In this document: positions 4,544 to 32,702 of the stretch, one piece after another | How the letters are laid out: every line of letters begins with the position of its first letter | How positions within the stretch are numbered: the stretch's first letter is position 1 | DNA from: a virus | Virus record (IMG/VR): IMGVR_UViG_3300035698_002198 | Span: 1-32,702 of that record | DNA length: 32,702 nt | Strand: one strand, 5' to 3' | Translations under genes and position numbers: made by a program | The notes under the pieces: model-generated | Told to the model about the DNA's origin: nothing | Database searches by the model: none | The model's input: the letters and a program-made list of their open reading frames with translations, nothing else

Positions 4544-5083
4544 ATGGCTAATAGATCAAGAAAACAAAATAAGAAAAAACCTCAAAGATTTAAGACCACC
4601 AATAAAGCAAATAAGAGAAATGCTATGGGAAGATCAGTATATGGGGCAGATCTTCGAATGAAGAATGATCAATCTGTATTACGAGAAGCAATGGCAAGGA
4701 GAACTCCGTTCCAAAAGTTAAAATCTAATGTGCAGTCAGGATATGGCAAGTATAATACTAAATTTCAACAAGCTCAACGAAACGTTAGTAGGTCTATTAA
4801 AGGCGGTGTACGCGGTGCATCAGGTATAATGAATGGATTAGGTATGACTACTCTTGCTTCAGCTGCAGTAATAGGTAGTGCAGCAGCATCTGCTGATGCA
4901 TTTATGAAAGGTGGTATGAATCAAGCTCAAGATATAATGATGGATAGATATATGAGAGATTCAAGATACTCTAGTAGATTATTGACTCAGACTAATTTGG
5001 GATCCGCTACTGGAAATAGTACTATATCTATTGGTAATCATACTGGACTAAGTTTAGCAATGAGTAGACGTCGTCATGGGTAA
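4544..5083 (+). CDS. Hypothetical basic protein with Ala/Gly-rich segment (179 aa)
   Basis: Unknown. The first 30 residues are strongly basic (RKQNKKKPQRFKTTNKANKR), which would suit nucleic-acid contact. Residues 88-125 are rich in Gly, Ala and Met (GASGIMNGLG, LASAAVIGSAAASADAF), a small-residue hydrophobic helix. The C-terminus is Arg- and Ser-rich. GGAG ten bases before the ATG is the ribosome site and the gap to the preceding gene is one base. An HNH endonuclease gene follows it and separates it from the similarly built gene at 5651, so the endonuclease probably inserted into a once contiguous pair. It may be a virion protein; function not assignable. Confidence 0.62.
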   Translation: MANRSRKQNKKKPQRFKTTNKANKRNAMGRSVYGADLRMKNDQSVLREAMARRTPFQKLKSNVQSGYGKYNTKFQQAQRNVSRSIKGGVRGASGIMNGLGMTTLASAAVIGSAAASADAFMKGGMNQAQDIMMDRYMRDSRYSSRLLTQTNLGSATGNSTISIGNHTGLSLAMSRRRHG

Positions 5084-5645
5084 TATAATGTTAAAAAGGA
5101 AAGCACACAATGCATTAAATCTAGATATAAATGCGTTAGTATCTAAAAATAATAATGGTAAAACTATAACTGAAATAGCAAAGGAATATGGATGTGCTAT
5201 GGAAACTATTCGACAATGTTTTATAAAAAATAATATTACATATAAACGTTATCATAGATGTAAAAATGAAGAAAAAGTTAGAGCGACTAAAGCACTATAT
5301 AAACGTAATAGACGTAAAGATGCATCGTATAGAGTATTGGATAATTCTAGACGAAGAATAAATTCAGCATTAAATGGAAAAAATAAATCTAAATCTACTA
5401 TGAATCTTATTGGTTGTAATGTTGAAGAATTAAAAATACATTTACAACAGACAGCTATTAACAATGAATATAACTTTTTTGATATAAATAACTATTCTGG
5501 CAAAGAATATCACATAGATCACATAAAACCTTGTTCTTCATTTGATTTAAGTAAACCAGAAGATCAAGCTAAATGCTTTCATTATAGTAACTTACAAATA
5601 CTAACAGTTAAAGAAAACTTAGAAAAAAGTAATAAGGTAGGGTAA
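5076..5645 (+). CDS. HNH homing endonuclease with N-terminal HTH
   Basis: This is a free-standing DNA endonuclease. The HNH core is clear near the C-terminus: YHIDHIKP (145-152) with the metal-binding His/Asp pair, then FHYSNLQILTVKENLEKSNK (168-187) with Asn172 and Asn181. Residues 28-55 (KTITEIAKEYGCAMETIRQ, then the recognition helix) look like a helix-turn-helix for target binding, as in many phage HNH homing enzymes. The middle is basic. The start is uncertain: the ATG at 5076 overlaps the previous gene by eight bases, while an in-frame ATG at 5088 lies four bases after its stop; neither has a ribosome site. Its position between two structural-type genes, and unrelated to them, is typical of a homing element. 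Confidence 0.9.
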   Translation: MGNIMLKRKAHNALNLDINALVSKNNNGKTITEIAKEYGCAMETIRQCFIKNNITYKRYHRCKNEEKVRATKALYKRNRRKDASYRVLDNSRRRINSALNGKNKSKSTMNLIGCNVEELKIHLQQTAINNEYNFFDINNYSGKEYHIDHIKPCSSFDLSKPEDQAKCFHYSNLQILTVKENLEKSNKVG

Positions 5646-6616: not shown

Positions 6617-8440
6617 ATGTCTAAACAAAAATTATCAGATGATGAACAGAAATGGTTTATTGATACTTTAAGAAATCCAGCAGATTGGACAGAAAAGTTC
6701 TTAAAGAATCCTACTAACCCACAAGAGAATATTACGTTACGATCGTATCAACGTGAGGTATTAGAAGCTTCTCCTATAAATAAAAATATGTCATTACTAC
6801 AAGGTCGTAGAACAGGTAAATCTGTAGTACTTTGTGCAGACGCATTATGGACAGCTACTGCTCAACCATTGGTAAAACTATACGACGAGCAAGGATCAAG
6901 ACAAGTACCGCAAAACATACTAATATTGACGCCTATGGATTCTCAGATAAAGATGTTATTCGATACAATATTACAATTAGCCGCTGACTCACCATTCATT
7001 CAAAACAATATTACTAAGATAAGAAGATCTGACGTAAGTGAAATTCACTTTAGTAATGGTTCAGTAATTAAAGGTATGACTATTGGTATTTCTTCTGCAA
7101 ACAAAGGTACATCTGTACGTGGATTAAGTGCAGATTATTTATTAATAGATGAGATGGATTATATACCTAGAGATATAATGGAACAAAGTATATTACCTAT
7201 TGCTTCTACAAATAGAGACAGTAGGATGAGAATATCTTCTACTCCTACTGGAAAACGTGATTTATTTTATGAGTATAATACAAATAAAAGTCTCGGTTGG
7301 TGGAATATTAAAGTTCCTTCTTGGCATCCAGATAATCCTTCTTGGATATCTATTAAGGAATGTGAAGATAACGGTAGACCTCTTCATGAGAGTACGGAGT
7401 ATCAGTATAAATCAGTTATGGATTCTAATTCATACCAACGTGAGTTTGGTGCTGAATTCGGAGAAGAAATAAAAGGCGTATATAAAAATGATCTATTAAA
7501 CAAATCATTGGTTAAATATTGTAATAATTATGATATGGCAGATCCAGATTTATTTGATCCAGGATTTCCACAGGTAAATGGTAATAAATATATTATTGGT
7601 GTCGATTGGAATAGTTATGTAAATGGTGGTCAAATTGTAGTATTAGAATTATGCTTAGAAAAAACCATTGTACAATACTTCGACGATGAAACTAATCAAG
7701 AAGTTACTATTGATTTTACTAATAAGTTTAGATTATTTTATAGAAAAGGTGTGAAGATAGAAGACGGAACGCAGCGTGCAACAAGAGCAGAAATAATAAG
7801 AATAATGACTCAATATAGAATCGATCATATGTATGTTGATTATGGTTACGGAGATACTAATATTGAGGAGTTAACTGAATATGGTAGATTACATCCTGAA
7901 TTAGGAATCGCACAAAAATTACATGTAATAGATTCTGGATCTAATATAGAACATTATGATGTGGTGTTACAGAAAACTGTAAAGAAAAGAGCAAAGTCAT
8001 TAATGATAACTACTGGTGTAGTTGCATTAGAAGAAGGTAGAATAATATTACCTATAGAAGAAGATACTAAACCTAGATTAGTTTCACAGATGAGAAGTTA
8101 CAATATTAAGAAAGTAACTGTAAAAGGAGACTATACATATGAAGGTGAAGATCATATACTTGATGCATTTAATTTAGCAATGTGGGGATTTAATCATCAA
8201 TATAGTACGTTCCTTACTACAAAATATGAACATAGAATAAAATTTATGGAAAATAATGCATTATCTGCTGCTCCTATGAGAAAACAGAGTGTAGAATCAC
8301 CTATACTAAAATCAACGATTACTAATATAAAAGATCCTGATGCTCCTGCTTCATACTCATTGCCAAGAATTGGTGGAAAAGTATTAGGTAAAACAAGAGG
8401 ATCAAGTTCATTTGGAACAACATTTAGGAGAACATTTTAA
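6617..8440 (+). CDS. terL: Terminase large subunit
   Basis: This is the motor ATPase and nuclease that cuts concatemeric phage DNA and pumps it through the portal. The ATPase domain shows Walker A GRRTGKS (63-69), Walker B YLLIDE (174-179) and coupling motif SSTPTGK (207-213). The RNase-H-like nuclease domain shows IIGVDWN (Asp330), HMYVDYGYGD (Asp408) and EDHILDAFNLAMWG (Asp516), a complete acidic triad. At 607 residues it has the usual length. The N-terminus carries an adenine-binding-type LRSYQREVLE (41-50). No clear ribosome site precedes the ATG. Its stop overlaps the next start (TAATG). No small terminase is evident next to it; the four-cysteine protein at 3203 is one candidate. Confidence 0.96.
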   Translation: MSKQKLSDDEQKWFIDTLRNPADWTEKFLKNPTNPQENITLRSYQREVLEASPINKNMSLLQGRRTGKSVVLCADALWTATAQPLVKLYDEQGSRQVPQNILILTPMDSQIKMLFDTILQLAADSPFIQNNITKIRRSDVSEIHFSNGSVIKGMTIGISSANKGTSVRGLSADYLLIDEMDYIPRDIMEQSILPIASTNRDSRMRISSTPTGKRDLFYEYNTNKSLGWWNIKVPSWHPDNPSWISIKECEDNGRPLHESTEYQYKSVMDSNSYQREFGAEFGEEIKGVYKNDLLNKSLVKYCNNYDMADPDLFDPGFPQVNGNKYIIGVDWNSYVNGGQIVVLELCLEKTIVQYFDDETNQEVTIDFTNKFRLFYRKGVKIEDGTQRATRAEIIRIMTQYRIDHMYVDYGYGDTNIEELTEYGRLHPELGIAQKLHVIDSGSNIEHYDVVLQKTVKKRAKSLMITTGVVALEEGRIILPIEEDTKPRLVSQMRSYNIKKVTVKGDYTYEGEDHILDAFNLAMWGFNHQYSTFLTTKYEHRIKFMENNALSAAPMRKQSVESPILKSTITNIKDPDAPASYSLPRIGGKVLGKTRGSSSFGTTFRRTF

Positions 8441-9789
8441 TGTCTAGTAATAATAAAAAACCGACAGATATCGAAGGGTTAGCTGGAGAAGAGTTAACTG
8501 ATGAATTATTACAGCAATTGATAACTGAAGGTAGAGTTAGTTTTCCATTTAAGAAAACTAAAACAACAACAATATCTTCACCAGAGGATAAAACACATGA
8601 CACTGTTGCAGATGAAAGAAAGAAATTATTTGACTCTGTAAAAGAGAACGAAGAATACGTAAAACAATTAGAAGATATGCGTGATGACATGTTGAAAGAC
8701 ATGAAGATAAAACCTCGTAATAAACGTATAGCAGATGCAGCAAAAAAATTAGGTTCTACAGATGGCACAATTACTAAAGATGTATTAGACACTGCTGAAG
8801 CGTTATTAGATCCTATGGCGATGGAAGTTGCAACTACTGGAATAAGTTCTCCATTAGCAGCACTTACAGGAAACGGTAAAGTAAGTGGTGATTTTCTAAA
8901 TTGTAATGACGCAACTAAGGGAATGATGGATAGTTGGAATTTGGCAGTAAATAATAATCCTAAAAATCCAACAATAGCTGACATACAAAATAAGGCACAA
9001 GAGGACGTAGTTCAAGATACTAAAGATGCATTCAAAGAGAAAATGAAAGAAATGGCCCTGATGCTACTTCAAATGTTATGGTGGGAAATGATATGGGTAA
9101 GAGTAGTTATATTTACATTAGAGATTGTAGAAAAAATAATAGCTGTACCTATTGATATATGGGCATTGATTTTTAGACTATGGCCAAAAAAACCCACTAA
9201 AGAAAACTTTTATCAATATGGACCAGTACATAGATTATTAAATAAATTAAGAATTATATTATTATGCGTTGTTCCACCTAAAGCATTTAAACAATATAAT
9301 CCAGATCCTGAAGTTCAAATATGGAATAAGCATAAAAAACAATTCCAACCACTTCCTAAATTTTGTAAATCGAGTAATCTAGTAACAGAGTGTCCTAAAA
9401 ATGCACTAGGTGAACCAGATGTAGTAGATCCTACACCAGGATTTGACGGTGAATCAATGGGTACTAGTATGGGTGATTTTGATTATGCTGAGGAACAGAC
9501 ACAAAGTGGATTATCGTTCCCAGAAGTAAAAGCATACTTTGATACAGAGGACCCTATTGATTGTGTACCTTCAAATTTCGCAAACTTATTTAAACAAAGA
9601 GATTTAAAAGGACCAGGAATAACTCCAGCTTGTGCCGAAGCAGCACAAGAAATATTAGAAGAGGTATATTCTGCATCTGTTATTGCTGGTAATAATATAC
9701 GTACTGACCCTGAAGAGAATTCATCAATATTTAATGCTGCAGTAAGTGGAGATATTAAAGCCGCAGCAGCAGGAGACGGAGGACTATAA
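8440..9789 (+). CDS. Hypothetical virion-type protein with hydrophobic helices (449 aa)
   Basis: Unknown. Residues 1-200 are hydrophilic and helical with a Lys/Glu-rich coiled-coil-like part (about 55-105). A long hydrophobic block at 205-248 contains MALMLLQMLWWEMIWVRVVI and AVPIDIWALIFRLW, enough for two membrane-type helices, and a third hydrophobic run lies at 270-280 (RIILLCVVPP). The C-terminal third is acidic, Pro- and Asp-rich with several cysteines. No family is recognised. It lies between terminase and portal with one-base overlaps on both sides, so it is made with the head proteins. The gene at 10033 has a similar build. Membrane or DNA-ejection functions are possible but unproven. 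Confidence 0.65.
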   Translation: MSSNNKKPTDIEGLAGEELTDELLQQLITEGRVSFPFKKTKTTTISSPEDKTHDTVADERKKLFDSVKENEEYVKQLEDMRDDMLKDMKIKPRNKRIADAAKKLGSTDGTITKDVLDTAEALLDPMAMEVATTGISSPLAALTGNGKVSGDFLNCNDATKGMMDSWNLAVNNNPKNPTIADIQNKAQEDVVQDTKDAFKEKMKEMALMLLQMLWWEMIWVRVVIFTLEIVEKIIAVPIDIWALIFRLWPKKPTKENFYQYGPVHRLLNKLRIILLCVVPPKAFKQYNPDPEVQIWNKHKKQFQPLPKFCKSSNLVTECPKNALGEPDVVDPTPGFDGESMGTSMGDFDYAEEQTQSGLSFPEVKAYFDTEDPIDCVPSNFANLFKQRDLKGPGITPACAEAAQEILEEVYSASVIAGNNIRTDPEENSSIFNAAVSGDIKAAAAGDGGL

Positions 9790-10049
9790 TGTCAAATGAT
9801 CAAAATAATAAACACGGATTTATATCCGCTGCGTATCTTTTAAATAGAGCTATTAAAGAAATGAGAGATCATGTAGAATATGAGAAATTTCTATGTAGAA
9901 CTATTGAAGATAATGAAACAACGAGAAACTTTCAAAAAAACACACAAGAATTAGATGAATCTAAGTATAGAGTATTATATGATAATGAAGCTGTTAACAA
10001 ACATACCGCTAAAGGTAAAAAGGAAGCACTAAATGGCAGAAACCAATAA
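9789..10049 (+). CDS. Small hypothetical protein (86 aa)
   Basis: Unknown, highly charged and probably helical (LLNRAIKEMRDHVEYEKFLC near the N-terminus). GGAGG nine bases upstream is a good ribosome site, and the ATG overlaps the previous stop. Its end overlaps the next gene by 17 bases, so the three genes at 8440, 9789 and 10033 form one coupled set between terminase and portal. It might be a small partner or chaperone of the large hydrophobic proteins on either side, judged only by position. Confidence 0.68.
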   Translation: MSNDQNNKHGFISAAYLLNRAIKEMRDHVEYEKFLCRTIEDNETTRNFQKNTQELDESKYRVLYDNEAVNKHTAKGKKEALNGRNQ

Positions 10050-11334
10050 AAATCCTGAACAAGCAGTAATTGAAGGTATATCTGGTGCTATAGATGATAC
10101 TATGGGACATACTTCGTTTTCTGGTATAGGAAATGTTGTAGCGTTAGTTAATAAGGTAGATGCTCAAGGTATGTTAAGAAAACTTACTGATGAAGTAGAT
10201 AATGTAGTATTTAAAAACTTAGCAAAAGACATGTTAGGAATGTTAAGTTCGTTTTATGGATCAGAAGAAGTAATGTGTTGTCTTATAAAAAATATAATAA
10301 TGGCGGCTGGAGCAGGAAAAAGTATAGAAACCTGGAAAGCAAATATACGTGAGTGGAAAGAAGAACAGCGTAGAAAACGGGATGAGCTTGGTGAGGATTT
10401 AGGGAATGAAGAACAATCATTTGATATTGAAGATGATTATAAAATATCTGTAATGGATTTAGCATTTGTTAAAATAATAGATGAAACGATATTCGTCGTT
10501 GATGCAATTATTATGTTTTTACAATTAGAAATAAAAAATTTTACATTTCCTATTCTAGATATAGCTAAATTATTGGCAGATACTGTAGTAGGTATGATAA
10601 TTATAGCTATGCAAGAAATAGTATTTACCTTGAGAGATTCTGCAATTGCGTGGGTAATAGATTCCTTAGAAAAAGCAACAGTTGACGCAGAATGGCTTAA
10701 GTGTTTTCAATTCAAAGATTTCATTCAAATATTAAAGAAGTATATACATGATTATGGTATGTTAGATAAACTGTTTGGAATGATAACTGGTAATATTGGA
10801 GCTAAATCTAAAAAATTTAAAGATCTACATAGTAAAGGTTTAGAAAAAGTTAGAGTATTAGAATTTTTAAAAAGTCTAAGAGGTATTTTAGTTCAAATAA
10901 AGAATGCCGCGATAAGTTGGGAATTTTGTGTAGGTCTTGAATTCGGAGAAGATAATCTAGCTAGTGAAAATAGTGATGCACAAAATAATATTAAATCATT
11001 TTTCGAAGATCCTGACTTTGGTAAATTAAATCCTAATAGTAAAACAGATAATAATTTAGCTTTTGGGGACGATGATACTATACTACGTAATACAGATAAT
11101 GCTAATCTTAATGATTTATTTGGTGGAGCTGATGATACACAGATCCCTAGTGATCAAGAAGTTAATGCTTTTTTACAAAATAGAATGGGAATGTCTAAAC
11201 AAATGGCAGATCAATTGACTGGATTTTTACCTTCTACTAATGAAAATCGTAGTAATACAAATGATTGTGGATATACATTAAGTAATGATGATGTACAGAA
11301 AGCAATTAAACGAGCTATAAATGGTGGAATATAA
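10033..11334 (+). CDS. Hypothetical virion-type protein with long hydrophobic region (433 aa)
   Basis: Unknown. Residues 1-100 are helical with hydrophobic patches (NVVALVNKV, CCLIKNIIMAAGAG). A charged linker (100-135) is followed by a long, strongly hydrophobic to amphipathic helical block at 138-211 (ETIFVVDAIIMFLQLEI, ADTVVGMIIIAMQEIVFTL). The C-terminal third is Asn- and Asp-rich and probably disordered until a final helical segment. The layout parallels the gene at 8440. AAGGA lies eight bases before the ATG. The portal gene starts two bases after the stop. Position suggests a head-associated or ejected protein; no motif confirms this. Confidence 0.66.
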   Translation: MAETNKNPEQAVIEGISGAIDDTMGHTSFSGIGNVVALVNKVDAQGMLRKLTDEVDNVVFKNLAKDMLGMLSSFYGSEEVMCCLIKNIIMAAGAGKSIETWKANIREWKEEQRRKRDELGEDLGNEEQSFDIEDDYKISVMDLAFVKIIDETIFVVDAIIMFLQLEIKNFTFPILDIAKLLADTVVGMIIIAMQEIVFTLRDSAIAWVIDSLEKATVDAEWLKCFQFKDFIQILKKYIHDYGMLDKLFGMITGNIGAKSKKFKDLHSKGLEKVRVLEFLKSLRGILVQIKNAAISWEFCVGLEFGEDNLASENSDAQNNIKSFFEDPDFGKLNPNSKTDNNLAFGDDDTILRNTDNANLNDLFGGADDTQIPSDQEVNAFLQNRMGMSKQMADQLTGFLPSTNENRSNTNDCGYTLSNDDVQKAIKRAINGGI

Positions 11335-21549: not shown

Positions 21550-24438
21550 ATGGCTAGAGAATATGCGATACCTTCAACGTCTACGTTCATTCAAGATTTT
21601 GGACTAAATGTTACTCCGCCGCCAGCTAATAGAAATAGAAAAATTGTGATCATCGGAAGTTCCGAAGATGGCCCAATGTACGAACCTGTATCGGTTGATA
21701 AACCAGAAGATTCAGAATTAGTATGGGGACGTTCATCACAAGGTAACCTTGTAAAAGGTATTTTTGAAAGCTGGGGTGCACAAGAAGGCAATCCTGATAT
21801 AGTAGGTGTTAGAATCGGTAATGGAGTAAAGGCAACTTTAGAAATCCTTGAAACTGATGGCGATGGAACTAATGAAGAACAGCCAGATAATAACGGTGAT
21901 GGTGTTACATCACTTACATTAGAGGCTAGATTCCCTGGAGCTATATATAACCAAGTAACTGTTAAGTACGATGATCGTCAAAACGTTGCTATATTTAATC
22001 CTAAAACTGGATTAACATCTATATTTAGTGTAGATACGGGTAATCCCAACAATTCTTCAGTAGATGTACATAATGTTTATGAATTAGCGAACGCGATCAA
22101 TAGTGATCGTAATCTTAATTCAATCATTACTGCATCAACAGATGGAGTATTAACTGATTTCGAGGTTAGTATCAATAGTGATACTGGTAGCGGAGTTATT
22201 CACCAGACTGATGAAGGTATAACAATAGAGCTTCAAGCACTTATTGCAACTTCTGGAGTTATTGCTGATGAAGATTCAGCGTACATTGTACCTGATCCTA
22301 TCTTACCTTATGGTGTAGATGAAATTGATCTTAATGGTAATCGTAAAAATATTACTATTGCTAATAATATTATAGAACTTGACGAAATTGAAGCAGTAAG
22401 TACTTCCGAGTGGGAAGTATTAGAATTTAATGGTATAGCTAGTAATCTAGAATTTAATCCATTAGACGGTAAAGGTACTTCTAGATGGGATACTATTCAA
22501 GCATTGACTGATTATGATAATGATTCTCAGTATATGTTTAATCCTTCTGGTGTTGTTATTTCAGAATTTATCTATAATGTAGATAATGCGTTGATTGATC
22601 AACTTCCTACTACTGCTAAAGGTAAAGATGAATTAAATGAATTCACATTTACTACACCTCTTCCATTTGATGAAAGTGAAGAAGTAGCAACTAGTGGAGT
22701 TTCTTTAGCTTGGCTTACAGGTAGTGCTGAGTATGATGATTACGCTGGACTTAGTTCAGGGTATCTTGATGCTACATGCCAAGGAATAGAAGTAAAAGAT
22801 ATGGATGGTACTGATGTAAGACCTTCTGGATACATTAAAGTATTTGTATCTGATGATGTAGATCCTAATGGTAGTTGGACACAAGTTCCGTATCATTCAG
22901 AATCTGGTATATACATGAGTTCTTTTACTGATGCTACTGCGACTAAAGATGCATTTGCTACATTTGCTATTGGTCCATATGCACTTCTATCATATAGTGG
23001 AACACTTGCTAATGGATATGATACATTATATCTTAACAGTACTTCTGATTACGAAGAACGCGTTAAGTTTACTAATCTTAATCAGTTGATTGATAGTAAC
23101 GGAGACATAAAGAAAGATGTATATATTAGAGTTGAAGCGAATACTGTAAAAGGTTTTATCAATGAAGTAGATACTCTTCCTCTATTAGAAGCTCAGAAAC
23201 CAACTTCTAATCTTACTAAAGCGTCATATTACTTTGTAAGAGGTCAGGAAGTATTATTTAATAAACCACCTGCATTTCCTATGGTTGTTAATTATGGCAC
23301 ACGTATTGTTTACGAGCCAGGTACTAATGTAACAATCAGTGATCCTGTTACTGGTCAAATCAAATTTACAGATCCTCTGTTACTTCCTGGACCAGGTGGT
23401 GGACTATTACAATCCGATAGACAATCAGCTATCAGATTTAAGTTCAAGTATATGCCTAATTTTCCTGCATTTACATCTGCAACTAAATCACTTATTAGTG
23501 GTACCAATGGAACTAAGATGACAGTTAAACAACGTGAAGACGAGCTTAAAAAGGCTTATGATTATTTACGTGACTTTGAAGCTACATTTTGGGTACCTAT
23601 GGGAGCATACATTGATGATGTTAAACAGGACTGGAATAAAACAACTGGTCTTAAAGAAAATGTTACGGCGTCATATGCAGTAGACATTGAAGATTTCTTA
23701 GATGAATTATCTATTAATAGTATTCAACCTCATGCAATATTGGGTGTTAATCAAATTGCTGATAATACTCTTAAATCTAGAGATGAGTTTATTGAAAATT
23801 TAACTGTGTTCGACATTAATGATCCTGTTCGCGGTGCAAATGTGATGGCACAGATTCAGTCTAAGTATATGTCTGTTGCTGCTTTCGAACCTATCTTTGC
23901 AAATATTGGTAGAGGAGCTCCTTATTCCGGAAACGGACAGGCTGCTTATGCTGGTATGTTGGCGTCACTGCCATACGATATTAGTCCTACTAATAAAACA
24001 ATTGCTGGGCTTAGTGCTGTAAGAAGCGTATTTTCTACAAGACAATACGAAGCACTGAATGCTATGAGGTATGTAACAATGCGTACTAAAAAAGGATTCG
24101 ATCCAGTTATTGTGAATGATGTTACTGCTGCACCTTATGGTTCAGACTTTGTAAGTTGGAGTACTTATAGTATTACAGCTGAAGCGTCTGACAGAGTAAA
24201 AGCTGTTGCTGAAACATACTTAGGACGTCCTAACAGTATTGAATTGAAAAACGCCTTAGATCAAGATATTTCTGACACATTGACAAGAATGTCTGGTCTT
24301 CAAGGATTTAATTTCTCATTAACTTCAACCCTAGAACAACAAGTACTTGGTGTTGTAGAAGTTGACTTAATATTAGTTCCAATCTTCACTATGAAGAAAA
24401 TCAGAACTACCGTTAAACTCAGAAAGAATTTAGCGTAA
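21550..24438 (+). CDS. Tail sheath protein
   Basis: This is the contractile outer tube of the tail. The N-terminus has the sheath hallmark KIVIIGSSEDGPMYEPVSV (residues 31-49) and VWGRSSQGNLVKGIFESWGA, in which a tape-like strand handshakes with neighbours. The C-terminal 200 residues match the conserved sheath core: YMSVAAFEPIFANIGRG, AAYAGMLASLPYDISPTNKT, STRQYEALNAMRYVTMRTKK and the final strand VVEVDLILVPIFTMKKIRTT. At 962 residues it is much longer than T4 gp18 (659). The extra length is in the middle (about 90-620), a Ser/Thr/Gly-rich, beta-rich region likely exposed on the tail surface. AAAGGAG seven bases before the ATG gives strong expression. The tube gene follows. Confidence 0.93.
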   Translation: MAREYAIPSTSTFIQDFGLNVTPPPANRNRKIVIIGSSEDGPMYEPVSVDKPEDSELVWGRSSQGNLVKGIFESWGAQEGNPDIVGVRIGNGVKATLEILETDGDGTNEEQPDNNGDGVTSLTLEARFPGAIYNQVTVKYDDRQNVAIFNPKTGLTSIFSVDTGNPNNSSVDVHNVYELANAINSDRNLNSIITASTDGVLTDFEVSINSDTGSGVIHQTDEGITIELQALIATSGVIADEDSAYIVPDPILPYGVDEIDLNGNRKNITIANNIIELDEIEAVSTSEWEVLEFNGIASNLEFNPLDGKGTSRWDTIQALTDYDNDSQYMFNPSGVVISEFIYNVDNALIDQLPTTAKGKDELNEFTFTTPLPFDESEEVATSGVSLAWLTGSAEYDDYAGLSSGYLDATCQGIEVKDMDGTDVRPSGYIKVFVSDDVDPNGSWTQVPYHSESGIYMSSFTDATATKDAFATFAIGPYALLSYSGTLANGYDTLYLNSTSDYEERVKFTNLNQLIDSNGDIKKDVYIRVEANTVKGFINEVDTLPLLEAQKPTSNLTKASYYFVRGQEVLFNKPPAFPMVVNYGTRIVYEPGTNVTISDPVTGQIKFTDPLLLPGPGGGLLQSDRQSAIRFKFKYMPNFPAFTSATKSLISGTNGTKMTVKQREDELKKAYDYLRDFEATFWVPMGAYIDDVKQDWNKTTGLKENVTASYAVDIEDFLDELSINSIQPHAILGVNQIADNTLKSRDEFIENLTVFDINDPVRGANVMAQIQSKYMSVAAFEPIFANIGRGAPYSGNGQAAYAGMLASLPYDISPTNKTIAGLSAVRSVFSTRQYEALNAMRYVTMRTKKGFDPVIVNDVTAAPYGSDFVSWSTYSITAEASDRVKAVAETYLGRPNSIELKNALDQDISDTLTRMSGLQGFNFSLTSTLEQQVLGVVEVDLILVPIFTMKKIRTTVKLRKNLA

Positions 24439-24493: not shown

Positions 24494-25186
24494 ATGGCTG
24501 AACAACTAAGTGATACATTTACTAGGACATATAATTCCCATAGTGGAACTGATATTGTCGCAACTATTAATGGTATCTTACTCGGTAATTTAAATGGTAT
24601 TTCTTTTTCTACTACTCGTGAGAAAGCACCAATTTATACTTTAGGTAGTGTAGATGCTGTTTCATTCGGTAGAGGAAAACGTGGTCATGCTGGTTCATTG
24701 ATTTTTACTAATTTCGACAGATCTGCGTTGTATGATGTGAAGAAAGCTAGTAATATTAACGGTAAGCCTCTTAAATACTATAGAAAAGGAACTGATATTC
24801 CTGCTGGTGGAAGAAGTCTGTTACTCGGTACAAATTTAGAAGACGGAGACCTTCGGGCTCTTGGTCAATCTCAACTTGCCGATGCAAACTATTCTGATCA
24901 AATACCGCCTTTTACAATAACACTTACAGGACAGAATGAGTATGGTAATACATCCGTTATGTCTATCTTAGGTGTAGAATTGATCAATGAAGGTTCTGGT
25001 ATATCTATTGATGATATTGTTACAGAAACACAGATGACATTTGTAGCAAGATCTATTTTAACGTGGAGACCACTTCTTGGTGGAGACTTACGTGCATTTG
25101 ATCCTAGCGTAGTAGGTAGAGATAGTGATATCGCTGCTATACGTCAAGCTTGGAATACAAAAGCAGCTAGTGAGAATATAGCATAA
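24494..25186 (+). CDS. Tail tube protein
   Basis: It forms the inner tube through which DNA leaves the virion. The gene follows the sheath gene, as is standard. The protein has two conserved blocks: DIVATINGILLGNLNGISF (20-38) with REKAPIYTLGSVDAVSFGRG and HAGSLIFTNFDR, and later DQIPPFTITLTGQNEYGNTS, SILGVELINEGSGISIDDIV and TQMTFVARSI. Both blocks recur in the next gene (25250), and more weakly in the gene at 27715, so all three share one fold. At 230 residues it is close to other myovirus tubes. AAGGAGATAAAAA precedes the start, the strongest ribosome site of the tail group, as expected for an abundant protein. Hairpins flank the gene on both sides. Confidence 0.87.
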   Translation: MAEQLSDTFTRTYNSHSGTDIVATINGILLGNLNGISFSTTREKAPIYTLGSVDAVSFGRGKRGHAGSLIFTNFDRSALYDVKKASNINGKPLKYYRKGTDIPAGGRSLLLGTNLEDGDLRALGQSQLADANYSDQIPPFTITLTGQNEYGNTSVMSILGVELINEGSGISIDDIVTETQMTFVARSILTWRPLLGGDLRAFDPSVVGRDSDIAAIRQAWNTKAASENIA

Positions 25187-25249: not shown

Positions 25250-27616
25250 ATGGCAAAATTCGGTACAATCTTTCAAGACACTTTAGTTAAAAGAACTAGT
25301 GACTTCACAACAAATATTCGTAACGATGGAACAGATTTCTTATCTCGTGGTCCTGTAAATACAACAATGAATTTTAATCCAGATGATCCAAATGCCGCAT
25401 TTGCAGCAAGTGAAAAATCATATAGTGGAACTGACTGCACAGTAGTAATGAACTATAATGGTAACATGATGGTTATAGGTAATCTAGAAACCTTTTCATA
25501 TTCAACATACAGGGAAAAAGTACCAGTAAGAACATTAGGTAATATATATCCTAAAGGGTTCACATATGGTTGTATTGACGAAAATGAATTAATTCATACT
25601 GATATTGGATTAAAGAAAATAAAAGATGTAAATATAAACGATAATATATTAGCATTTGATGAAAAAAATGAACAATTAGCATATTCTAAGTGTGTGAATA
25701 AATTTGATAAAGGTATAAAACACACATACAATGTACGACTACGAGATGGATCATCTATGAATTTGACAGCTGATCATAAAATATTCACAAATAATGGATG
25801 GAAAAAAACAAAAGATTTAGACATTGTCACTGATAAATGTTTAATTAATACTAAATATGATTATTCAGGTAATACATTAAACATTCCTGATTATTATTTA
25901 AAATTATTAGCATATGGTATAGGTGATGGAACATTCGGCTCATATATGGACAGTAAACAAACAGTATTCGCATTAACGCCAGGAGTAAACGATGATAAAA
26001 TTGTAAATGAAATCGAAACCATTTGTGAACAAAATGATATATTATATAATAAATCATTTAAAAATAATTGTTATAGAATACAAATAAATAATACAGCGAA
26101 ACAAACTGATTGGAGACAACGTAAATACAAAGATTTTATATTATGGACTAGAAAATTAAATATTTATGGTGAAAAAAGTCACCAAAAACACATACCTAAT
26201 GAATTGTTAAGTATGTCAAATGCACAATTAAGTATGTTTTTATCTAGATTATTTGGAGCTGATGGACATATATCTAAAGATAAAAATAATAATAGAGTAA
26301 GAATAGGATATACTTCAACATCTAAAAAACTAATATATCAAATACAATCATTATTAAAACGGTTTAATATATATGCAACTATTGCGAATATAGGTATACC
26401 TAAATCTAAATTAATAGTTGGAAAACACGAAGCATATGTATTAAATATATCTAAAGGTTATGTTTATTCGTTTATAAAACAAATAGGAATATACGGTAAA
26501 GAAGATAAATGTAATAGTTTAATGAGTATAATACTCAATAATCTTAGATATGACGTTAACGATATAAAACAATGGAAACTTGATAATAATTTAAATACTA
26601 AAAAATTACCTATAACGTATAATAGGAAATATATTCGTAAGACGCAAATTCAAATTAATATAGATGAATTATATGAAAATAACATATTTCCTATCGTTGA
26701 AAAAGAAACAACTAAATGGCTACATATAGTTGAAATTACTAAAAATGATAAATCACAAGTATATGATCTTGAAATAGAAGATAATCATAATTTATTTGGT
26801 TCATTTTTATCACATAACTCTAGAACAATTAGTGGAAGTATGATATTTGTTCAGTTTGACGAACATCCACTTTATCCTTTTTTTCAATTTTTTAATAAAC
26901 GAACAGACAAAACACACAGACATAGTTCACCGTTAAGTGACGATATTCCGCCATTTGATATATCTTTAATATTTCAAAATGAATACGGGGCACATTCTAT
27001 TATGCGTCTATACGGAGTAGAGTTATTTCAAGAAGGCGGAGTATTCAGTATTAATGATATATACAGTGAGAACACCATTCAGTGGGTAGCCAAAGATATG
27101 GATCCTATGATTTCTGGCGGAGAAGTAGATTCATTTAAAGAATTACTTTATAGAAAACAGGTAGAAGGTAAAATCGTTGATGAGCACTTCGCATCTATGT
27201 TAAAATATAGACAGAAATTACAACGACAGGTTGCTCAACTAGATAAACAAATCTTACAATTACAAGATGATAGAGGATATATATCTAGAAAGACTGAAAG
27301 GTTATGGAAGGAAGACTCTGAGAATTTATCTAAACGTCGATGGAAAAAGAAAAATGCACAGGCAGAATTAAATAAACTTATTACACAACGAGATACATTG
27401 TACGCAGAACTACAAAAAACTGATGTATCTATTAGAAACTATGAACGATTTAGTATGACTAATGATATGAATTCATCTACGTCTTCTATAATACCTGATG
27501 TATATGGGGATGCAGCAAAACAAACAAATCAAACAGATACTGCTGAACTTACTAAAGAAGAACGTAAAACACAAAGACATAAAGAACGTAAAGGCAAAAA
27601 AGAAGATCGTACATAA
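25250..27616 (+). CDS. Tail tube-like protein interrupted by an intein
   Basis: The precursor is 788 residues; removing the intein (108-523) leaves 372. The joined exteins read as a tail tube relative: GTDCTVVMNYNGNMMVIGNL (60-79), REKVPVRTLGNIYPKGFTYG (88-107) joined to SRTISGSMIFVQFDEHPLY (524-542), then DIPPFDISLIFQNEYG, LYGVELFQEGGVFSINDIYS and TIQWVAKDM. Each block aligns with the tube at 24494 without gaps at the splice site. The C-terminus adds about 160 residues absent from that tube: a long charged coiled coil (LKYRQKLQRQVAQLDKQILQ, and KRRWKKKNAQAELNKLITQ) and a Lys/Glu/Arg tail. It may be a tube initiator, cap or tail-length partner. No ribosome site is clear before the ATG. The same frame stays open for 31 codons past its TAA. 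Confidence 0.88.
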   Translation: MAKFGTIFQDTLVKRTSDFTTNIRNDGTDFLSRGPVNTTMNFNPDDPNAAFAASEKSYSGTDCTVVMNYNGNMMVIGNLETFSYSTYREKVPVRTLGNIYPKGFTYGCIDENELIHTDIGLKKIKDVNINDNILAFDEKNEQLAYSKCVNKFDKGIKHTYNVRLRDGSSMNLTADHKIFTNNGWKKTKDLDIVTDKCLINTKYDYSGNTLNIPDYYLKLLAYGIGDGTFGSYMDSKQTVFALTPGVNDDKIVNEIETICEQNDILYNKSFKNNCYRIQINNTAKQTDWRQRKYKDFILWTRKLNIYGEKSHQKHIPNELLSMSNAQLSMFLSRLFGADGHISKDKNNNRVRIGYTSTSKKLIYQIQSLLKRFNIYATIANIGIPKSKLIVGKHEAYVLNISKGYVYSFIKQIGIYGKEDKCNSLMSIILNNLRYDVNDIKQWKLDNNLNTKKLPITYNRKYIRKTQIQINIDELYENNIFPIVEKETTKWLHIVEITKNDKSQVYDLEIEDNHNLFGSFLSHNSRTISGSMIFVQFDEHPLYPFFQFFNKRTDKTHRHSSPLSDDIPPFDISLIFQNEYGAHSIMRLYGVELFQEGGVFSINDIYSENTIQWVAKDMDPMISGGEVDSFKELLYRKQVEGKIVDEHFASMLKYRQKLQRQVAQLDKQILQLQDDRGYISRKTERLWKEDSENLSKRRWKKKNAQAELNKLITQRDTLYAELQKTDVSIRNYERFSMTNDMNSSTSSIIPDVYGDAAKQTNQTDTAELTKEERKTQRHKERKGKKEDRT
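25571..26818 (+). mobile_element. Intein with LAGLIDADG homing endonuclease
   Basis: A 416-residue self-splicing element lies in frame inside the tube-like gene. It starts with Cys (CIDENELIHTDIGLKKI, block A) right after FTYG. Block B is NLTADHKIFTNNGW with His176. The endonuclease has two LAGLIDADG helices, LLAYGIGDGTF (219-229) and FLSRLFGADGH (330-340), each with an acidic residue before the final glycine region. It ends with block F/G, VYDLEIEDNHNLFGSFLSHN (504-523), followed by Ser as +1 residue. All splicing residues (Cys1, block B His, penultimate His, last Asn, Ser+1) are present, so splicing and homing look functional. Its DNA appears more A/T-rich than the exteins, which suggests separate origin. 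Confidence 0.96.
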
Positions 27617-27714: not shown

Positions 27715-30700
27715 ATGGGTAATAAAGTAGACAAATCACCTAGAAGAAAAGAAAGAGCTGCAAACGCAGAACGAGAAAATCAAACACAAGGTGGCCTTAA
27801 TAAGGCACTTGGTGCAGGTAATATAGGTTCATCTGATACAACAAAATCTAGGCATAATTACGATACTTATAAAAAAGATTACTTTTCTGGTACTCAAGCA
27901 AACGTATATTTTGGGGATGTATTAGTAGACGACATAATATCTATTCAATATACTACTTCACAAGGTAAAGAACCAATATATGGGTATGCCTCTCAGACGT
28001 TCGATGCGGTAGCTATGGGGACAGTTATGGGTCAAGGTACACTTACTATCGCATTCAAAGAGGTTGGCTATTTAAACGTAGTGCATGCCTTATTAGAAGA
28101 GCAACGAATAAAGACTAGTATAGCTAAACATAATATTACTAATAGAATACAATCTTCTGCAGATGGAGCTATAAGTTCATCTAATAATTCTACTGGTGAT
28201 TACACCGCGGTAATTAATAGTAATACTACTCCTGGATTAATACGTAAAGCTGAAAATATTGAAACTATTATGGATGAGCTTAAAGGTGCTGGTGCTAATG
28301 CAGGAAAGTCATTTTCATACGGACAAGTAAATTACGATGGAATAAATCAAGGATTATTTACTGGTAAAAACGGACTTCGTGATTTTGAAGACATTGCTGA
28401 AATATTAGAAGATACTATTTGGGGAGATAGTAACGGTAAGATACTGGATCCTACAGCAAACCAAAAATTATTAAGAGCAGACGAATTCGACTATAGTTAT
28501 AAAAAGGATAAAGCTATTGGTATTAAATCAGCAGAAGGTGACGAATATGGAAACGTATTAAACATAATGTTAACGTTTGGTGATATAAATGATCTTAGAG
28601 CAGAACACACATTAGTATTATTAAACGATGTTCACTTTACAGGACAAGGATTAGTTACTGCTCCTAGCGGTGAACCTATTGCTGAGACATATCAATTCTT
28701 TTTTAAAGATCTAAATAAATCTTTAAGTAATACAGTATTTAATGTTGATCCTATTAAATTTCATATAGGTACTGATAACGCTATAGATTTAACAAGGGCT
28801 CAAGACGTAAAGACAATACTCGACTCATTAGATAATCAAGGTGGCGAAGCAGCAGTAGACATTCAAGTATTATCAGGATTTGATAACACGACTCAAAAAT
28901 GGACACCTGTTACATTTCCTAAATGGGCATCATACAAAACAGATACTCCATTTTTAAAACTTGGTGCATATGGTGCTTCTGATCTAAATAAATTTATAAC
29001 TGATATGATATATAGTTCATATCTTAATGATGGATCATTGAAACGATATGATAGAATTGCAGCAGAAGTTTTTATTGGTACTGGGAATCCTGATGACTCG
29101 ATACTTCATTATATTTTAGAAAACACAGGTACAAATACTGCTAACTATAAAGTTATATCTCCAGGAAAAAATGACTACCAAGCATTAAACTTAGTAAGAC
29201 GTGAAGACTTCTTTACTGATCCTAATCCAACACCGGAACAAGAAGCAGTAAATGACATTGGTGATTACGTTGCTCCTACAAACGAACAGAAGAAAGTAAA
29301 TATTACTAATGGTCCTGTTGTAGCACCAACTACACCTCCGACTGATGATTCAGCTACTAAGAAAATAGATCAAACTAAACCAAATCAAGGATTTGCACAT
29401 CCTAATCCAAAACAAGGCGGAAAAGGTAGTAAGAGACCTTATAGTGTAGAAGGATTTGAAGAACGTGAAGGAGAAAAGGACTTCACTGATGGATATATCT
29501 ACCCAACTGAAACTCAATATGTGAATTCAAACGATCCAAATCCAAACCCAGTTATGGTTCAAGATTTTACACACATCGATGATACATATGGAACACTAGA
29601 AAACAATAATGCTACGATTGCATCGTATGAAAACATATTAAATATGGAAGATCATACAGAAGTGTTTGAATTTAATATTCCAGGATATAGTGAAATGAGT
29701 CGTAAAGACAAAAAAGTAGCCGAAGAAGAATATTTAGGATTTATAGAAACAAATATAACTAAGCTTAAAATTAACAATGATACCCTAGGAAAACATGAGA
29801 AAATTGATGCTGATATCCTGAGTGTTAATCAGCAACTATTTAACTTAGATAATGATCTAGGTCTAGTGTCACAAAGAGAATTAAATCAACAGGTCAGAAG
29901 TACCAGAGATTCAGATTTTGATGAAAATGGAGCTTTTATACAACCTGAACGTTCTATTACTCGTACCGAAACATTAAATGCTGAAGTAGATAAATATACA
30001 AAAATACAACAAGTTGCGTGGGATAGAATAATAAATGGTAATTTTGATGATATTTCTGTTAAATCATTTGAAAAAGCATCTAAGAACTTAGAAGGTGCTC
30101 AAGAAAAGCTAGATGATTTTTATGATAATACAGAAATTGATAATTTAAAACAAGATGTAAAAGATCTAGATAAACAAATAGACGAGATATATGAACTTAA
30201 GGCTAAAAACTTAAAAACACAACAAGACGCAATTACTACATTCCGTGATGAAATCGTAAATGCACAAGATACAGATCGTGACCAGCGTACATCTGTAGAT
30301 TCAGAAGGTAATATAGTATACTTAAATCCTGATGGAACAACTAAAATAATTCCTACTGATCGTCAATCAAGACACGATATATCATATCTTGAAGTATTTA
30401 AAGAAGAACTTGAACGCAATATTCAAAAACGCGATGGTACTAAACAAGAAAGTAAACCTACAGATAAGTTAGATTTTGGTGATGCGTTTGATGAAAAAGA
30501 AGATAAAGAATCTAGTGATAGACAGAAGAGTAAACAAGAAGAATTAATTAAACAGATAGAAGAAGGTACATATGAAAATAGACGTACTAGATTAGGTAAA
30601 CTAATAACTGCTAAAAGATTATTACCTCTTGGATTAAATAAAACTACTGTAGATGCGTTACAACAAATAGTAGATGATCCTCAAATTCAGGATAGTATAA

Positions 30701-32702
30701 TAGCAAATAGATTTATACAGAAGCAATATGGAATAAGTGTAGATAAAACTAGTGAATTATTAGGAAACGCCAATGATATATTTAATGATGGAGTTACTGA
30801 ATCTGAACTTAATGACTTATCTGCTACGTTAAAAACAATTAGTAGTGACAATACTAAGTTTAATCAATTAGTTGAAACTAATACAGGGTTTAGTAAAATA
30901 GATCTTACTGACAATTTAAATAGATTATCTCCATTTTTATCTAGTTCAATAAGTTTAAATGCTAGTAATATAGATGCGTTGGCAACAACGTTGAAAAATT
31001 TAAAGGACAATCCTCTGTTCGAAACAACTATATTAAAAACTACTGGTAGTAGTATAGAAACGCATCAAAATAATTTAAAAAGATATAACCAAATAGGTAC
31101 GACTGGAACTATAGAAGGTGATCTGAATTTAGCTGATGCTATTTTTGCTGAATATGAAGGAAAAGATTTTGGTGAAAAATTAGTAAAGAATACATTAAAT
31201 GTTAAAAGTATTGCTGAAGCAAGACATAAATTAGGAACAGTAAATTCTACTTTTGCTAATATAGGTAAACAAGATCCAAATAAAACAATAAATACATTAG
31301 TTCCTATTATAACCGAATTAGGTAATTCAGAACTAGTTGAAGATATATTTATATTGAATTATGATAAAACTCCTGATGAGATAATAAGCTTATTAACAAC
31401 AAGTCAGACATTCATCAATAATCCTACATTTGAAGGAATACCTACATTAAATAATAAGGTAGGTGAATTCACTGGTATATCTTTTGCTGAAGACTTATCA
31501 CAAAAGGCATTAGGTGCAAGTATAGGTGCTGTACAAAAAAGTTTAAACAGTATATATAACTCTCAAGAAGATGGTACTCAATTTTCTGACTTTGGTATAT
31601 TTGCAACAGGGTTAGACGCATTAGGAAATACACCTGCTGTAAATAAACTTTCTGAATCTATATTCGGTAAGGGGAAAACTAAAGATAAGGTGTCTAGTGA
31701 TTTTAAGAAGTTATACGAGACATCTACTGGAAAAATTGATGGTACAGAACTATCTACAATAATTGGAGTTATTGACGAATACAAAGATGCTGAATTATTT
31801 AAGACTACATTAGAAGGAGCATTAGGCAATACTCCAATAGAACAAGTAATATCTGAATTAAGTATAGTAGATAACTTATTTGATTTAGGTTTAAAAGATA
31901 TTGCTAATCCTATCAAAGTATATAATGTTGGTAAAGATGCTATTCCTGTAGCTCAAAAATATTCAAAGTTTCCAATCGTTCAAGACTTAGCACTAGCTAA
32001 GTATGGTGCAACTTTAGATAGTTTAAATGCAAAAGATCTATTAGGTGCAATAAAAGCTAAACTTTCTCCTGCTAAAGTTGTTGACTCTGCATTTAAACGA
32101 ATAGATAAATTATCAGATTCAATTAAAACTGAAGTTGCTAACTATGGAAATTTACAAGGAAAAGAAAATCTAATAAAAGGATTAATTTGGCAAGAATCTA
32201 GAGGTAAAGTTAACGCAGAATCTGTAGTAGGAGCAAAAGGGCTTATGCAAATTATGGATGCAACTGGAGCTGAAATTGCTGGAAAATTAAGTATACAGGA
32301 ATATGATTTGAATGATGCTAAAACAAATATTAAATTTGGAGTAAGTTATTTTTCAGGTCTATTAGGTAGATTTAAAGGTAATGAAGCATTAGCATTGGCA
32401 GCATATAATCGCGGTCCAACAGCTGTGGTAAAATTAGATGGTAACCTACCTACTAATAAAGAAACCGCAGAATATGTACCTGGTGTATTCGGTGCAGAAC
32501 AAGTGTTTGCTTCAAGAGATTCATCATTTGTTTCTAGTGCTACTACTGTAGACTCTATAGTTCCTGTTGTGACGGCTACTCAACAGACTAATCAAACAAC
32601 TCCTACTCCTATTACACCAGAAGCTACACAATGGATAAATGATAGACAGAATTCACCGTTGACGTCACCTTCATCATATTCAGAAAACGTATCTAATATA
32701 TA
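27715..32702 (+). CDS. Giant tail protein: tube-like N-terminus and lytic transglycosylase domain (3' end outside window)
   Basis: The frame is open from this ATG to the end of the window, at least 1662 codons, with no stop. Residues 56-126 (YFSGTQANVYFGDVLVDDII, EPIYGYASQTFDAVAMGTVM, GQGTLTIAFKEVGYL) and 283-337 (LNIMLTFGDIND, VLLNDVHFTGQG, AETYQFFFKDL) resemble the two halves of the tail tube fold. Residues about 495-590 are a Pro/Asn/Gln-rich linker, then long charged helical stretches follow (about 655-960). Residues 1485-1575 are a soluble lytic transglycosylase: WQESRG with catalytic Glu1494, GAKGLMQIM (1506-1514), NIKFGVSYFSGLL and AAYNRG (1562-1567). The enzyme part would cut peptidoglycan during entry. 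Position after the tube genes suggests a tape-measure or tail-hub protein. AGAGG lies before the start. Confidence 0.87.
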   Translation, partial: MGNKVDKSPRRKERAANAERENQTQGGLNKALGAGNIGSSDTTKSRHNYDTYKKDYFSGTQANVYFGDVLVDDIISIQYTTSQGKEPIYGYASQTFDAVAMGTVMGQGTLTIAFKEVGYLNVVHALLEEQRIKTSIAKHNITNRIQSSADGAISSSNNSTGDYTAVINSNTTPGLIRKAENIETIMDELKGAGANAGKSFSYGQVNYDGINQGLFTGKNGLRDFEDIAEILEDTIWGDSNGKILDPTANQKLLRADEFDYSYKKDKAIGIKSAEGDEYGNVLNIMLTFGDINDLRAEHTLVLLNDVHFTGQGLVTAPSGEPIAETYQFFFKDLNKSLSNTVFNVDPIKFHIGTDNAIDLTRAQDVKTILDSLDNQGGEAAVDIQVLSGFDNTTQKWTPVTFPKWASYKTDTPFLKLGAYGASDLNKFITDMIYSSYLNDGSLKRYDRIAAEVFIGTGNPDDSILHYILENTGTNTANYKVISPGKNDYQALNLVRREDFFTDPNPTPEQEAVNDIGDYVAPTNEQKKVNITNGPVVAPTTPPTDDSATKKIDQTKPNQGFAHPNPKQGGKGSKRPYSVEGFEEREGEKDFTDGYIYPTETQYVNSNDPNPNPVMVQDFTHIDDTYGTLENNNATIASYENILNMEDHTEVFEFNIPGYSEMSRKDKKVAEEEYLGFIETNITKLKINNDTLGKHEKIDADILSVNQQLFNLDNDLGLVSQRELNQQVRSTRDSDFDENGAFIQPERSITRTETLNAEVDKYTKIQQVAWDRIINGNFDDISVKSFEKASKNLEGAQEKLDDFYDNTEIDNLKQDVKDLDKQIDEIYELKAKNLKTQQDAITTFRDEIVNAQDTDRDQRTSVDSEGNIVYLNPDGTTKIIPTDRQSRHDISYLEVFKEELERNIQKRDGTKQESKPTDKLDFGDAFDEKEDKESSDRQKSKQEELIKQIEEGTYENRRTRLGKLITAKRLLPLGLNKTTVDALQQIVDDPQIQDSIIANRFIQKQYGISVDKTSELLGNANDIFNDGVTESELNDLSATLKTISSDNTKFNQLVETNTGFSKIDLTDNLNRLSPFLSSSISLNASNIDALATTLKNLKDNPLFETTILKTTGSSIETHQNNLKRYNQIGTTGTIEGDLNLADAIFAEYEGKDFGEKLVKNTLNVKSIAEARHKLGTVNSTFANIGKQDPNKTINTLVPIITELGNSELVEDIFILNYDKTPDEIISLLTTSQTFINNPTFEGIPTLNNKVGEFTGISFAEDLSQKALGASIGAVQKSLNSIYNSQEDGTQFSDFGIFATGLDALGNTPAVNKLSESIFGKGKTKDKVSSDFKKLYETSTGKIDGTELSTIIGVIDEYKDAELFKTTLEGALGNTPIEQVISELSIVDNLFDLGLKDIANPIKVYNVGKDAIPVAQKYSKFPIVQDLALAKYGATLDSLNAKDLLGAIKAKLSPAKVVDSAFKRIDKLSDSIKTEVANYGNLQGKENLIKGLIWQESRGKVNAESVVGAKGLMQIMDATGAEIAGKLSIQEYDLNDAKTNIKFGVSYFSGLLGRFKGNEALALAAYNRGPTAVVKLDGNLPTNKETAEYVPGVFGAEQVFASRDSSFVSSATTVDSIVPVVTATQQTNQTTPTPITPEATQWINDRQNSPLTSPSSYSENVSNI

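Follow-up and report, generated by a model that had tools for sequence, protein, structure and literature searches.

The locus described here raises the question of whether the 416 codons that interrupt a gene of tail-tube type are a complete intein, and from which gene such an element could have come. The DNA analysed (hereafter the window) is a complete virus record of 32.7 kb (32,702 nucleotides), in which genes for a terminase, a portal, a major head protein, a tail sheath, and a tube follow each other. It is probably a piece of a larger phage genome, and judging by the presence of a sheath gene, the tail is of the contractile type. Very probably, the interruption is a canonical class-1 LAGLIDADG intein, which lies in frame within the second tail-tube gene and belongs by descent to the terminase Walker-A lineage. 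The genes of the window that bear on this explanation, including both parts of the interrupted gene, are as follows.

6617..8440, + strand: terminase large subunit, with an uninterrupted Walker-A site (GRRTGKS, bases 6803-6823), which is the site of the nearest related inteins in other phages
21550..24438, + strand: tail sheath protein (phrog_16991 tail sheath, 4.3e-40)
24494..25186, + strand: main tail-tube paralogue (tube1), uninterrupted in the window (phrog_9206, 1.6e-40; alignment)
25250..25570, + strand: N-extein of the second paralogue (tube2), 107 aa, with 67% identity to the uninterrupted L004 homologue
26819..27616, + strand: C-extein of tube2, 265 aa and the stop, its first residue being the +1 Ser; tube fold with a predicted helical C-terminal extension (61% identity to the L004 homologue; fold of that homologue)
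27715..32702, + strand: a single open reading frame (ORF) continuing past the window end, which fuses a third tube-like domain (phrog_9206, residues 47-117) to a long region and to a lytic tail domain of transglycosylase-like type

The interrupted ORF (25250-27616) encodes 788 aa, residues 108-523 of which constitute the intein (25571-26818). The following elements can be distinguished within it; residue numbers are those of the intein itself.

25571..26818, + strand: intein of 416 aa, from Cys1 to His415-Asn416, with a LAGLIDADG endonuclease (Pfam/NCBIfam, relatives of solved structure, alignment with terminase inteins)
25571..25609, + strand: splicing block A with the catalytic Cys1 (sequence; Cys1 is invariant among related inteins)
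25748..25789, + strand: splicing block B, T66-x-x-H69 (TADH), T66 and H69 being invariant among related inteins
25904..25930, + strand: LAGLIDADG motif 1 (LLAYGIGDG) with the catalytic Asp119 (alignment with related inteins)
26237..26266, + strand: LAGLIDADG motif 2 (FLSRLFGADG) with the catalytic Asp231 (alignment with related inteins; Pfam LAGLIDADG_3)
26759..26800, + strand: splicing block F (VYDLEIEDNHNLFG; VYDLEIEDNHN), from sequence and alignment
26801..26818, + strand: splicing block G (SFLSHN) with His415-Asn416 (NCBIfam intein_Cterm over its cut-off)

The ends of the intein are exact: the codon of Cys108 of the precursor lies at 25571, that of Asn523 closes at 26818, and the +1 residue is Ser524. 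According to Pfam, Intein_splicing and LAGLIDADG_3 score 42.0 and 56.3 bits (cut-offs 35.8 and 22.5, respectively). NCBIfam reports 21.0 bits for intein_Cterm (cut-off 15.6) and the same value for intein_Nterm, which is slightly below its cut-off of 24.5. When the intein was modelled by itself with AF2 (mean pLDDT 63.5), the best solved matches were TliVMA, PI-PfuI, and PI-SceI, all of them full inteins with endonuclease domains. By fold these share the Hint and LAGLIDADG architecture with the window's intein, but they reside in cellular host genes and have 10-20% identity to it. The features that characterize a class-1 intein are all found, i.e., Cys1, the T-x-x-H of block B, His-Asn followed by Ser, two LAGLIDADG motifs with acidic residues, and an in-frame insertion that is missing from the homologues of the host protein (107/107 other ORFs). 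A preliminary description of the window had placed a complete 416-residue intein with a two-motif LAGLIDADG endonuclease at this position. Both statements hold, the coordinates being exact, blocks A, B, F, and G being in place with the Pfam and intein_Cterm scores over their cut-offs, and Asp119 and Asp231 being kept in a domain that LAGLIDADG_3 recognizes. The intein also differs from its surroundings in composition, having 23.7% GC and a GC3 of 12% in comparison with ~33% and 19-21%, respectively, in the exteins; the difference in GC content fits foreign arrival.

As for the host gene, the joined exteins align over their full length with a gene located after the main tube gene in related phages. 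The nearest tube2 homologue, which is uninterrupted, belongs to contig L004 and shows 64% identity. Both tube1 and tube2 match phrog_9206, and the homologues in Bacillus phage KLEB27-3, situated directly 3' of the sheath gene, are annotated as tail tube proteins. The AF2 model of the L004 homologue, based on a 34-sequence alignment, has a mean pLDDT of 75.6, with much of the barrel above 85. Its matches in the PDB are the phage 812 tube, the AFP/PVC tube and tube-initiator proteins, and the T4 baseplate tube (E of ~1e-6 to 1e-4, probability 1.00). According to this model, tube2 has the tail-tube fold, and a low-copy role as tube initiator or adaptor would suit its long, helical C-terminal extension. 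A scan of bacterial genomes with the tube2 alignment found no relative. Regarding annotation, phrog_9206 carries the label 'major head protein', yet its members fold and sit like tail-tube proteins; this label is probably wrong for genes 8899-9381 and 9803-10327 of Moorella phage MTATph1 (L017).

The junction FTYG|SRTISG aligns without gaps to FGRG|KRGHAG of tube1 (24494-25186), and in the closest uninterrupted homologue it corresponds to KGFTYG-TRTIGGSM. Three IMG/VR scans together with two named phages provided 108 distinct tube2 ORFs, the window's included. The site is contiguous in 107 of them and the sole interrupted ORF is that of the window, these counts representing distinct ORFs, many from related phages, and not independent events. 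Residue -1 is Gly in 106 of the 107 homologues, and residue +1 is Ser or Thr, as an intein requires, in 19. The 11 residues surrounding the junction rank 8th of 151 by conservation and lie at the margin of the one block that is conserved best, and in the L004 model the junction position falls in a barrel strand (residues 110-126). A DNA-pattern search detected no intein ending at the same tube2 site elsewhere in IMG/VR, and two scans of viral contigs with intein-derived peptides detected no close relative, with one single weak match in the second scan. The intein-in-tube arrangement is represented by one copy on one metagenomic contig, in collections that may lack very close relatives of the window. 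The preliminary description had assigned the host gene to the tail-tube type, with which its fold, paralogy, and position directly after sheath and tube agree, and had located the insertion in a block conserved between tube relatives, as the gap-free junction confirms. The comparisons it had proposed gave the expected outcome as well: the spliced product aligns end to end with intein-free homologues, and empty sites exist in related phages. It had also called an intein in such a gene uncommon, and a literature search with incomplete coverage found no published intein in a tail-tube gene.

Inteins occur in several other genes of the phage group. Intein_splicing has matches at E ≤ 0.001 in half of the 40 related virus records (13 above the curated cut-off), and the hosts that can be named are terminase, the large subunit of ribonucleotide reductase, DNA polymerase, portal, helicase, and an exonuclease-like protein. 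In comparisons with the window intein, terminase Walker-A inteins take all of the top four places (134, 86, 76, and 73 bits), and a ribonucleotide reductase intein comes next with 48 bits. These Walker-A inteins (terminases of G004, G020, vB_BauM_KLEB27-3, and G013) are inserted at GRR|xGK or GRRxGK|, and mycobacteriophage terminases have comparable P-loop intein sites, TerL1-a/b (PMC5050341). The inteins of KLEB27-3 and of the IMG/VR relatives G004, G013, and G020 have the LAGLIDADG lineage and the splicing blocks in common with the tube intein and are similar in size (375-409 aa), but reside in the terminase ATPase rather than in a tail tube and show 24-31% identity to it. In a tree of 23 inteins from the phage group, the tube intein falls within the terminase Walker-A set (UFBoot 96 / SH-aLRT 97), the inner branch that joins it to two terminase inteins being weak (86/56). 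Since the window intein is inserted in the tube gene and the window's own terminase P-loop is empty (GRRTGKS intact), it is related to the TerL Walker-A lineage and is not an allele of that site. At the DNA level, 17 of 42 bases agree between the tube site and the K|S site of the terminase, a modest likeness (random mean 11.5, sd 3.0). Because the intein descends within the Walker-A terminase inteins of related phages, the simplest reading of the tree is that it moved ectopically, out of a terminase and into the tube gene. This direction is likely and not proven, given the low identities, the weak inner branches, and the unfixed root; at just 24-31% identity, the terminase origin depends on a tree that is deep and uncertainly rooted.

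As a separate observation, some relatives (L210, i.e., G004, as well as L211 and L213) have several inteins per gene, with at least 2 in the G004 terminase and ~3 in ORFs of 2,600-3,000 aa. Intein-bearing ORFs of 1,500-3,000 aa in the relatives, some located <10 kb from the tubes, were also considered as tail genes. Two of these large ORFs matched Cas4/exonuclease families and the rest could be given no identity, so none was counted as a tail intein.

The tube1 genes of relatives are interrupted as well. In L016, an insert at 8884-9772 splits tube1 at FGRG|KRGHAG; this codon boundary is the homologue of FTYG|SRTISG at the intein. The insert is preceded by U and has G as its last base. Within it, bases 7-16 (GTTTGCCACG, a 10-nt guide) pair without gaps with the joined exons CGTGGT/AAAC, a match that is unique in the 20-kb locus. 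The pairing has the form that a P1/P10 guide takes in group I introns, and the insert is an apparent intron of this type, with a ribozyme core that scores a weak 23.1 bits for Rfam RF00028, below the gathering score of 50. The protein encoded within it is of LAGLIDADG type and merely a distant relative of the window's. A close common endonuclease of the two elements was considered and rejected, since blastp gave no better than E=0.008 in a database of just three sequences. A DNA likeness of their sites was not supported, with 12 of 42 bases identical versus a random mean of 11.5. A second, clear group I intron (9791-9971, Rfam 66.7 bits) lies in the same gene ~20 bases beyond the first. Further tube1 inserts with homing-type ORFs are present in L015 (8890-10001 and 10432-11302), L121 (5056-5950), and L163 (5058-5990). 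Their sites, REKA|PIY or REKAPV|YT and TQM|TFVA, do not coincide with the intein-homologous boundary. Rfam does not recognize the tube1 inserts of these three contigs as group I introns; they are provisionally regarded as introns by their position and the homing-type ORFs they encode. The inserts in L016, L015, L121, and L163 indicate that the tube genes of the group have been invaded repeatedly. Intron and intein do share one codon boundary, but with several inserts and a small conserved region, a preference of both kinds of element for conserved stretches can account for this (compare PMC2814812).

According to the proposed mechanism, translation would yield a single 788-aa precursor, from which the Hint domain (Cys1, the block-B T-x-x-H, His415-Asn416, and Ser+1) would excise itself, joining residues 107 and 524. 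The spliced product would be a tube-fold protein of 372 aa that is extended by helices at its C-terminus. As the 416 residues lie within a strand of the tube barrel, unspliced protein should not form the tube ring, and splicing would thus be needed for this part of the virion. By cutting alleles that lack the intein, the endonuclease is predicted to spread it through homing, and an ectopic move from a terminase would have brought it to the tube gene. Both the splicing activity and the homing are deduced from the sequence.

Alternatively, the intein may splice slowly or conditionally, controlling the dosage or timing of the tube2 protein versus the main tube and gating tail assembly. The preliminary description had raised the dosage part of this, namely that slow or conditional splicing could limit the amount of tube2 protein. 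The tube2 product is probably needed in another copy number than the main tube, and stress-conditional splicing of some inteins is discussed in the literature (PMC7156551, cyanophage terminase). However, none of the other tube2 homologues carries the intein, so it is not needed for normal tube ratios. Moreover, a recent selfish insertion would be expected to have intact endonuclease motifs, low GC content, and relatives in another gene, as is the case here. A regulatory role is thus very unlikely; a selfish element fits the context better, in which the endonuclease motifs are intact, the sequence is AT-rich, no other homologue has the intein, and the nearest relatives reside in another gene.

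That the intein is degenerate or splicing-dead and inactivates tube2, or that it represents an assembly error, might be supposed from its being known from a single metagenomic contig. All catalytic residues are present, however, the frame is open across 788 codons, and both exteins are highly identical to the homologues at conserved positions. In addition, the insertion is codon-exact at the Gly|Ser junction, which is not expected of a chimaeric assembly, and this reading is very unlikely. Weak sub-cut-off matches to Hint and PT-HINT would be consistent with a domain of Hint type (bacterial intein-like or pretoxin/hedgehog Hint) that stays in the mature protein as a stable part. Yet Intein_splicing exceeds its cut-off, the precursor has both a LAGLIDADG domain and the nucleophile Ser at +1, and the flanks align gap-free with intein-free tubes, which makes such a domain extremely improbable.

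In the literature, phage inteins, as most phage introns, are placed in nucleic-acid enzymes, and it is asked why other genes are spared. Group I introns are known in Twort orf142, later recognized as a tail-tube gene (PMC11878797), and Cluster J mycobacteriophages have introns in capsid and tail genes (PMC3706429). Like the window intein, these are self-splicing selfish elements in virion genes, but they are RNA introns and not protein-splicing elements. The apparent L016 intron at 8884-9772 shares the homologous codon boundary with the intein, but is likewise an RNA element, in a paralogous gene and with a distantly related endonuclease. Structural-gene inteins are known from the portal genes of mycobacteriophage cluster C1 (PMC5050341) and are also seen in the relative G033, the host in both cases being the portal and not the tail tube. 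Against this background, both the intein of the window and its kind of host gene are new, and its way of working is a known one. Together with its relatives, it reveals a phage group whose virion tube genes are hit repeatedly by both kinds of self-splicing element, and an intein lineage that seems to have exchanged the terminase for the tail tube as its host. The idea that insertion sites are chosen for being conserved (the 'conserved site' explanation) becomes testable beyond enzyme active sites, and failed splicing of the tube2 intein would appear directly as a tail-assembly defect.

Upstream of the terminase, the window has two free-standing homing-endonuclease-like genes, located at 2295-2783 (phrog_559/9084) and 5076-5645 (endonuclease VII / HNH-like), the latter being AT-rich as the intein is, with 25.7% GC.
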